This document shows positions 2,744 through 4,373 of a stretch of DNA of 11,306 bases, one piece after another. How positions within the stretch are numbered: position 1 is the first letter of the stretch; the number at the start of each line of letters is the position of its first letter. The notes beneath the pieces were generated by a model. That model saw only the letters and a program-made list of their open reading frames with translations, searched no databases and was not told the origin of the DNA. Origin of the DNA: Pirellulaceae bacterium (lineage in GTDB: Bacteria; Planctomycetota; Planctomycetia; Pirellulales; Pirellulaceae); assembly GCA_020846515.1 (NCBI GenBank), contig JADLDX010000843.1:1-11306 (forward strand), in the 5' to 3' direction. Position numbers and translations under genes: made by a program.

Positions 2744-2826
2744 GTAGCCACCGTCACCCGACGGTGGACTTGTAGCCACCGTCGCCAGACGGTGGATTGT
2801 AGCCACCCGTCGCCAGACGGTGGACT
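2744..2826 (+). repeat. Three tandem REP-like elements, GTAG head plus CCACCGTC palindrome
   Basis: Three copies start with GTAG at 2744, 2772 and 2799. Each continues with the arm CCACCGTC, a 4-nt loop, and the arm GACGGTGG, giving an 8-bp stem. The loops are ACCC in copy 1 and GCCA in copies 2 and 3. Copy 3 has one extra C in its left arm. A GTAG head next to an imperfect hairpin is the known form of REP elements mobilised by REP-associated tyrosine transposases (RAYTs). The copies sit in the gap between the ceramidase-like and SGNH genes, where transcripts would carry several strong hairpins. No transposase is present in the window. Confidence 0.85.
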
Positions 2827-2840
2827 AGTCCGCAAGCGAA

Positions 2841-2866
2841 ATCCACCGCTTGGCAGCGGTGGCTAC
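2841..2866 (-). repeat. Inverted REP-like element with compensatory stem change
   Basis: Read on the minus strand, GTAG (2866-2863) is followed by the arm CCACCGCT, the loop GCCA and the arm AGCGGTGG. Compared with the three plus-strand copies nearby, two adjacent positions of the left arm changed together with their partners in the right arm, so pairing is kept. It faces those copies with the GTAG heads outward, like a REP doublet. Its TAG is also the stop codon of the ceramidase-like gene. Confidence 0.85.
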
Positions 2867-4230
2867 TTTTCAAGCAATCGCGAAATGGCGGTCATCAACG
2901 GGCCTTCGACGTTTGGAGCCACGTTGCTGGCCGTGGGTCCAGTTTCATAGCCACCTTGAGCATACGCGGCTTCCGTACCGATGTAGCCCGGTCCGTAGTC
3001 GCCGTAGGCAGCCATGGCTACTTTTAAATCGGGTCTGAGCTTCTTGGCACCCAATTGATACTCGACAAACAATTCCCCAGGCATCCATAACACGCGGGCA
3101 TCGCCCACGGATAAACAAGCGATATCGATCTTGTGTCCAGCCTCACAGCGTTGGGTCCAGGCTAGTTGAGCCGCCAGGGAGACTAGTTTTTGTCCAGGGT
3201 TTGCTTTCAGTTGGTCGAGTAGTGGTTGTTGCGTCAAGTGTGGAGACAAAGGCAAGCTGGTGGGTTCAACTTGCCATTTCACCATCTCAGCCGTCACAGG
3301 GTAACGTTGTGTTGCCGCCATCGCGGCTTGCATGCCATCGGCCATGCGCTGCGCCAGGGCCATGCGATTTTCTGGCGAGCCATCGTTGTATTTGCCTGCT
3401 CCGATGTTCCCGCCAGCACCGTTGAAGTGTACGTGCAGCGTCTGAGGCATGGCTTGTCCGCGAATAAAGCGTGCAATGCCTGGCACATCAGGACTGGGAA
3501 CACCCGTTCGATAGTAGCTCTGTGGATGACACGCATAGAAGCTGAGCACCGCGAGCGGTTTGTCTCCGTTCCAGAAGGACAACTCTGAGAGTTCAGGATC
3601 GATGACGCCCTCGGGCTCGGCGCGCATTTTTGGGTCGCGCGTCGCCGTATAACGGACAGCCCGCACTTTGCCATCGGGACCTAAGATGCGGCGGTTGGAG
3701 GCAACTTGTTGAACTTGGGCTATCCCGTAGCCGTAGTGGGTAACCGTTTGCGGAGCGGCGATAGCCAGCTTGGCCGCAGCCGCAGCCCGTTGGATAACCT
3801 CGCGATGAAAATCGCCTTGAAACCGACCATACTCGGTGAGTCCCAACTCGCGAATGATTCGCTCCGCCGTAAAATCGCAGCCCGGCGCATCGTGTTGATG
3901 CAACGTATGCACGGCCACTCGTTGGCGAGTCGTCCCCAGCGCGTCGGCCAGCGCCTGACGAAAGCGATCGTTTCCTTCGTTGGCAATACCAATCCAATCG
4001 ACGGCACACAATACGATGGGTTGCCCCGCCCCAAGTAGCACGATGCCGCGACAACGCAACGTGAGCTCATCCACGCGTTTGACTGGATCGTAGGCCATCG
4101 GCATACCAAGCGACGGCGTCGCATCGACATCAAACATGGCCACCTTGAGTTCTGTGGCTTGGCACTGGCCCGTCCATGGCAGACCCAACGTCATCAAGAT
4201 CAAAAGTACTGACCGGGCACATGAGTTCAT
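2863..4230 (-). CDS. Exported neutral/alkaline ceramidase-like zinc hydrolase, short form
   Basis: The 455-residue product has a signal peptide (residues 1-25, cleavage likely after CQA). It resembles the N-terminal catalytic domain of neutral/alkaline non-lysosomal ceramidases, zinc amidases that release the fatty acid from an amide. Candidate zinc ligands line up by motif: H111 and H113 in HQHDAPG (matching HTHSGPG of true ceramidases), H235 in YACHPQS, E386 in MPGELF, and Y416 in [12 protein letters not shown]. True bacterial ceramidases are about 650-670 residues with a C-terminal Ig-like domain; that part is absent here. Many planctomycete relatives share this short form, and their substrate is unproven, so a role on ceramide should not be assumed. 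The start is supported by AGAGG six bases upstream. The stop TAG belongs to a REP-like element. Confidence 0.75.
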
Positions 4231-4260: not shown

Positions 4261-4334
4261 GTAGACGAATCGCTCCGCGACTCGTCACTCTCTTCACGTA
4301 GACGAATCGCTCCGCGACTCGTCATTCTCTTCAA
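4261..4334 (+). repeat. Two tandem 37-bp REP-like elements, GTAG head plus ACGAATCGC palindrome
   Basis: The units 4261-4297 and 4298-4334 differ at only two of 37 positions. Each begins with GTAG, then the arm ACGAATCGC, loop TCC and arm GCGACTCGT, a 9-bp stem with one A-C mismatch, followed by an 11-nt tail (CACTCTCTTCA in the first copy). This is a different sequence family from the one at 2744-2826 but has the same GTAG-plus-hairpin layout. It lies in the 151-bp gap between the alpha/beta hydrolase and the ceramidase-like gene. Confidence 0.85.
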
Positions 4335-4348
4335 CTATCCAGCCCAAA

Positions 4349-4373
4349 CCCCGGCACGGAGTGACGGGGCTAC
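4349..4373 (-). repeat. REP-like element, GTAG head plus CCCCG palindrome
   Basis: On the minus strand GTAG (4373-4370) is followed by CCCCGTCAC, loop TCC, and GTGCCGGGG: a 9-bp stem with one mismatch, then TTTGGG. It lies eight bases after the stop codon of the alpha/beta hydrolase gene, so it could act as a transcription terminator or 3'-end stabiliser for that gene. It is a third sequence family and again points its GTAG head outward relative to its plus-strand neighbours. Confidence 0.75.

Follow-up and report, generated by a model that had tools for sequence, protein, structure and literature searches.

A short array of GTAG-headed hairpins lies between two likely minus-strand genes (ORF calls) at positions 2,744-2,866 of a Pirellulaceae contig and raises three questions: to what class of element it belongs, which enzyme spread it and why the two arms of its terminal inverted doublet are unlike. 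We regard it as very likely that the hairpins form an array of the GTAG class of REPs whose end is a REPIN with unlike arms, and that this is a non-autonomous mobile element of a RAYT from a divergent planctomycete clade; the hairpin repeat was probably spread by a transposase that adjoins the same repeat in related species. Coordinates refer to the window, i.e., the whole 11,306-nucleotide stretch of DNA that was analyzed.

The GTAG array and its copies in the genome

The array comprises three tandem plus-strand copies followed by an inverted copy, and the copies come in two forms that differ in the inner stem, A (TC/GA) and B (CT/AG). Copy 1 (2744..2767) is of form A with the loop ACCC, copy 2 (2772..2795) has the consensus sequence of form A with the loop GCCA, and copy 3 (2799..2823), also of form A and with a GCCA loop, reaches 25 nt through an additional C that stays unpaired in the left arm. 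After a 19-nt spacer (2824..2842, ACTAGTCCGCAAGCGAAAT) comes copy 4 (2843..2866), of form B with a GCCA loop on the minus strand, which reads GTAGCCACCGCTGCCAAGCGGTGG on its own strand; copies 3 and 4 constitute the left and right arms of a doublet (REPIN) around this spacer. A preliminary description had claimed three plus-strand copies and one inverted copy with GTAG heads, all four of which are borne out at these positions, and it was exact in giving a GCCA loop to three of the four and in noting that the inverted copy has changed two stem positions on both arms; the tandem copies are as it described them, save that the extra unpaired C of the 25-nt third copy had been missed. The exact 24-mer of copy 2 is also present in many Planctomycetota contigs among the matches listed, which further include metagenome-assembled contigs labelled Gammaproteobacteria (L137), Verrucomicrobia (L159) and Acidobacteriota (L161).

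One of the flanking genes, on the minus strand, codes for a GDSL-type esterase; its longest ORF frame (1544-2806) overlaps the REP copies of the window and translation probably begins, judged by eye, at the ATG of position 2714. The other is a 455-aa ORF on the minus strand (2863-4230), for which a Pfam search gave no match and whose stop codon is the TAG of the GTAG head of the inverted copy (2863..2865, minus strand). Since a 70%-identical relative of this ORF in another genome (G163, locus L333) extends about six residues beyond it when compared by eye, the REP may have supplied the stop; a REP-head TAG likewise terminates ORFs of 130 aa or more at eight of the 163 copies sampled below. A second REP family is found in the window as two plus-strand copies of GTAGACGAATCGCTCCGCGACTCGT (4261-4285 and 4298-4322), with an inverted, minus-strand GTAG hairpin of differing sequence close by (4349-4373). 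The core of this second family, AATCGCTCCGCGACT, has 303 matches at no more than one mismatch in the same genome versus one for the reversed pattern, and it adjoins an HUH-type gene on contig C585 (L352).

Across the 6.48 Mb genome to which the window belongs, the pattern GTAGCCACCG-N4..8-CGGTGG of the first family matches at 209 places (102 forward and 107 reverse), 72 of them with the B inner stem, so the repeat is not unique to this locus; the reversed pattern has no match on either strand, and a control by single-base shuffling of 20 of the 66 blocks described next had none. These blocks (195,448 bases) surround the first 100 of the 209 listed places and the window, and ungapped copies were counted within them only at five or fewer differences from form A or B. 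Among the resulting 163 ungapped copies, with a stem of 8 bp, the GTAG head is present in 150, and the inner pairs are TC..GA in 87, CT..AG in 64 and other combinations in 12. Copies with a one-base insertion make up 33 of the 196 sampled (29 of form A and four of form B); as 24 of them match the third copy of the window in all its 25 nucleotides, the form with the unpaired C has itself multiplied repeatedly. The repeat thus combines GTAG beside a short palindrome (stem within 6-13 bp) with a high copy number, as in the GTAG class of REPs, and forms inverted doublets of preferred spacing, as in REPINs.

The preserved pairing of the stem, which the preliminary description had emphasized, was checked without any demand for pairing by taking every GTAGCCACC as a left-arm anchor (n=177). 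A left arms are followed by A right arms in 69 cases and by a B right arm in one, and B left arms by B right arms in 48 cases and by an A right arm in none; 28 of the remaining anchors are the inserted-C form out of register, with the rest scattered. When the loop and right arm serve as anchors (n=175), 100 copies have TC|GA, 59 have CT|AG and none has a cross combination. The stem therefore covaries as expected, but an added C with no partner has spread to 33/196 copies, so pairing is not strict everywhere.

A crude ORF count around the 163 copies places 43 of them between convergent, five between divergent and 51 between co-directional ORFs, with 13 undecided, and crude calls on genes without proper annotation put 51 of the 163 within ORFs of at least 130 aa. 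The preponderance of convergent over divergent settings (43 vs 5), the folding of the repeat, which is also strong as RNA, and an assembly with no cognate RAYT detected (see below) would all suit relict copies that the host retains for a function at the RNA or chromosome level (e.g., protection of mRNA ends or a protein-binding site), with no present mobility by a RAYT. Against such a role, 93 of the 163 ungapped copies are identical to a consensus, which suggests recent spread, and the repeat tracks the RAYT lineage (see below); moreover, a search of Rfam with the repeat gave nothing at the gathering score, and the absence of a T-run or A-run from the 10 positions on each side of 145 copies eliminates an intrinsic terminator. 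Hence, we hold retention for the host to be unlikely and favor a mobile element.

The clade transposase and its flanking repeats

Which enzyme could mobilize this element? A PF01797 profile search of the same genome recovered two Y1 genes, namely C184, which NCBIfam identifies as a canonical RAYT (174 bits) and whose flanks (L031) carry four copies of a third REP family (GTAGGCCGGAAC...GTTCCGGC), and C334, which is truncated by a contig end or lies near it and beside which no GTAG hairpin was detected. A third HUH-type gene, C585, is a weak match of the profile of the clade discussed below (E 2.7e-7) and is flanked by REPs that have their core in common with the second REP family of the window. 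Being the only Y1-type genes found in this genome, these three are the candidates if another Y1 enzyme, and not that of the clade, moved the copies here; we consider this distinctly improbable, given the separate REP families of C184 and C585 and the lack of a detected hairpin at C334. Thus, the expectation that a Y1 gene of this genome would be flanked by the repeat of the array failed for all three, and searches with a clade sequence and a 13-row clade profile did not find the cognate RAYT in this 80.81%-complete assembly, or in five further genomes, each of which has 7 to 24 copies of the repeat (G163, G023, G150, G158 and G044). The RAYT-moved reading of the preliminary description is instead supported in part, from related species, where a Y1 transposase is flanked by the same REP (G218 and G108).

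The route to this cognate clade was a locus (L149) at which copies of GTAGCCACCG lie directly upstream of a divergent Y1 ORF. Relatives of this piece are present in 11 of 38 genomes chosen as carrying the repeat or belonging to the same genus, including G108 of the same genus, with 92% identity over query positions 2-119; at this G108 locus, an exact A copy lies downstream along with further copies, and one of B type lies upstream. A clade RAYT adjoins the repeat at L149/L235, L236, L237 and L242. Within the family, the repeat pattern occurs in 36 of 199 genomes and the 13-row profile matches 91 of the 199 at E <=0.001, of which 50 score below 1e-40 and the others are weak matches to other Y1 families. 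PF01797 was tried as an alternative route and discarded, with no GTAGCCACCG-flanked gene at the loci inspected, which were 50 of the 68 matches in the genus and 30 loci of a further PF01797 search. Another of the 68 (G125 C80) is a clade member (L243), and the L149 piece scores 19.9 against the Pfam cut-off of 23; with some members above and this piece below, the clade stands near that cut-off. Separately, IS200-like Y1 genes in related genomes (L171, L178 and L214) have GTAGCC/GTAGCCC hairpins on both sides with GTAG outside.

The 13 aligned clade members conserve an HxH motif and the tyrosine of YIARNPER, with H72, H74, Y133, N137 and P138 invariant in 13/13, which fits the HUH motif and the single tyrosine in a YIxxNP setting of RAYTs; by analogy, these would be the catalytic residues of the clade protein. 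The structure that AlphaFold predicts for a homologue (P0003; pLDDT 91.9, pTM 0.87) finds its best fold match in 4ER8 (E 3.7e-7, TM 0.57/0.66), in which E. coli TnpA-REP is bound to a REP hairpin and which is also the best sequence match (E 0.0019), with 18% identity; the predicted fold is thus RAYT-like. A clade member scores 35.8 bits against the cut-off of 80 for the NCBIfam RAYT model NF047646, on account of which we term the clade divergent RAYT-like, the cut-off being a database threshold and no biological trait. To call clade members RAYTs is not new, as JGI already names some of them "REP element-mobilizing transposase RayT" (11 of the 120 listed among 1290 homologues), and among the homologues listed many are unnamed or hypothetical. 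The clade enzyme would cut and join its own single-stranded REP.

To what extent the clade and its repeats belong together is apparent from 62 clade loci, which encode 53 distinct proteins. Scanning 450 bases to each side, a hairpin finder located GTAG hairpins on both sides at 29/53, on at least one at 36/53 and on neither at 17/53; on shuffled sequence, it returned two hairpins in 140,230 bases, and it misses repeats in L245 and L247 that a looser rule detected. A recurrent GTAG 12-mer is present at 49/53 loci and one that pairs at 38/53; of the 102 such 12-mers, 65 pair at seven or more of eight positions and 37 do not, while 242 of 2000 arm swaps between members still pair. Nine clade loci (L245, L322, L324, L327, L329, L353, L360, L362 and L370) have a recurrent GTAGTGGACGAG that misfits the simple 8-bp hairpin and is possibly a differently shaped REP.

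The repeat and the enzyme diverge together. Over 36 loci, protein and REP distances correlate with a Mantel r of 0.63 (equalled in 0/5000 permutations), a value in which the shared ancestry of the hosts is left in, and the mean REP distance rises from 0.00 at protein distances below 0.1 through 0.04 (0.1-0.3) and 0.08 (0.3-0.4) to 0.33-0.34 (above 0.4). From the 38 distinct 24-nt REPs (76 distinct REPs of any length), we picked 19 by hand for alignment, omitting near-duplicates and damaged copies. All eight stem pairs change on both sides among these 19, with a score of 0.967 versus 0.297 when shuffled and at most 0.170 when slid, and 99.3% of positions are paired, a figure that holds partly by construction, as the 19 REPs came from the hairpin finder. 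None of them departs from GTAG, or from a G at the first and an A at the last loop position.

Taking these features together, we posit a mobile unit made of an A arm, the 19-nt spacer and an inverted B arm, with GTAG at both outer ends. When single-stranded, each arm would fold into an 8-bp hairpin beside an unpaired GTAG, and the Y1 HUH transposase of the clade (RAYT/TnpA-REP) would recognize GTAG, the loop and the outer stem shared by both arms, cut there and then insert the doublet elsewhere. The inner stem would need to pair without being read base by base, owing to which the arms may differ at just these positions. Along with this rule of recognition, the cutting and the insertion, we infer that the enzyme is, or formerly was, present in this species.

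Unlike arms of the doublet

When insertion forms are included (196 copies), 56 inverted neighbors in the genome have GTAG on the outside, 55 of which pair an A arm with a B arm and one an A arm with another A arm; tandem neighbors are of like form in 64/67 cases. The spacer measures 19 nt in 35 of the 55 unlike-arm doublets, and most such spacers approximate ACTCGTCTGGAGGCGAAAT oriented with the A arm on the left, a form that the spacer of the window fits and from which a few differ. For ungapped copies only (94 neighboring pairs, with 44/45 doublets unlike and 23 at 19 nt), the association of unlike arms was reached by none of 2000 label shuffles. Three or four apparent tail-to-tail pairs were set aside as artefacts of degenerate matches that overlap by 8 nt. 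Descent from a single founder doublet may produce the same A/B association within one genome. A comparison of filled and empty sites over 15 genomes of the genus found no syntenic empty site, the flanking genes matching relatives only apart or singly.

Unlike arms are also the rule in other genomes, where the B arm takes other forms. Of 66 GTAG-outside doublets at the RAYT loci, 54 have arms set apart by one or more compensated pairs, eight have arms that differ otherwise and four have identical arms, and the differing pairs vary by lineage (5+6, 7+8, 6+7, 6 or others). Sampled genomic doublets are unlike in 12/12 cases in G082, 5/5 in G150 (a spurious non-GTAG pair being dropped) and 2/2 in G158; in these three genomes the B arms differ from the B form described here and the A arms are the same or nearly so. 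The two arms of a doublet have GTAG, the loop and most outer-stem positions in common and diverge in the inner pairs.

This distribution admits drift within the same mobile element, such that the enzyme does not read the inner stem and the arms diverge freely while pairing with themselves, with no selection for unlikeness. That the arms are alike except at inner pairs, which themselves change from lineage to lineage, and that in the genome the A copies are uniform among themselves, as are the B copies, as if from one founder, is what drift would yield, and we consider it quite possible that nothing more is involved. It accounts less well for the rarity of like-armed doublets (1/56 in the genome, 4/66 at the RAYT loci and 0/19 in G082, G150 and G158 together), and folding offers a reason for selection. 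As single-stranded DNA, one long hairpin is favored over two small ones by 18.1 kcal/mol in an A-A and by 17.8 kcal/mol in a B-B doublet versus 5.0 kcal/mol in an A-B doublet; this is not decisive, as the long hairpin is still the more stable state in the A-B doublet. The unlike arms would then be kept because like arms collapse into one long perfect hairpin. Going further, we suggest, quite tentatively, that the arms are distinct left and right ends of a polar unit whose unlikeness is required for mobility and is re-created in each lineage by compensated changes, the inner pairs involved differing between lineages.

Relation to described REP systems

Planctomycete GTAG REPs, their heterodimers and their association with RAYTs are already published, and a search of the open-access literature with the terms used found no paper devoted to planctomycete REPs. 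The survey of GTAG REPs includes Planctomycetes and names R. baltica among the hosts, and it reports heterodimers whose preference had no obvious explanation and for which protection from hairpin cleavage was suggested (Di Nocera et al. 2013, PMC3733652). The repeats described here resemble those in the GTAG head, the short stem, the hundreds of copies, the inverted GTAG-outside dimers, the adjoining RAYT genes and the heterodimers with different stems; they may, when compared by description, be among its 24 families, and the difference is that unlike arms are here traced across RAYT lineages (PMC3733652). As the same survey records some REP-bearing species with no REPtrons (PMC3733652), the missing cognate RAYT does not exclude membership in the REPs.

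The inverted doublet, its fixed spacing and the specific adjoining RAYT are shared with the REPINs described from Pseudomonas fluorescens SBW25, the arms of which, however, are described as symmetrical and capable of forming one long hairpin, whereas here the inner stems differ and interrupt it (Bertels and Rainey 2011, PMC3116915). S. maltophilia and Marinomonas have perfect-stem TnpA-REP/REP pairs in which GTAG stands beside an unbulged stem, the loop G is essential, the stem must pair and is harmed by mismatches, and enzyme and REP co-evolve (Corneloup et al. 2021, PMC8266576). The planctomycete system resembles them in these respects, the loop G being invariant in the 19 REPs. It differs in that a one-base bulge is common and that its enzymes, known here by sequence and model, are distant, as their NF047646 score indicates. 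The palindrome of the E. coli REP is given as imperfect and bulged (PMC8266576).

In biological terms, planctomycetes offer a REP/RAYT system with numerous lineages, across which the co-divergence of repeat and enzyme is plain to see, and many clade proteins that are now unnamed or hypothetical can be annotated as RAYT-like. The natural enzyme/repeat pairs make the puzzle of the unlike arms testable. If a polar unit with required unlike arms is indeed at work, it would explain why GTAG heterodimers outnumber homodimers, and the recurrent unlike-arm rule is the part worth following.
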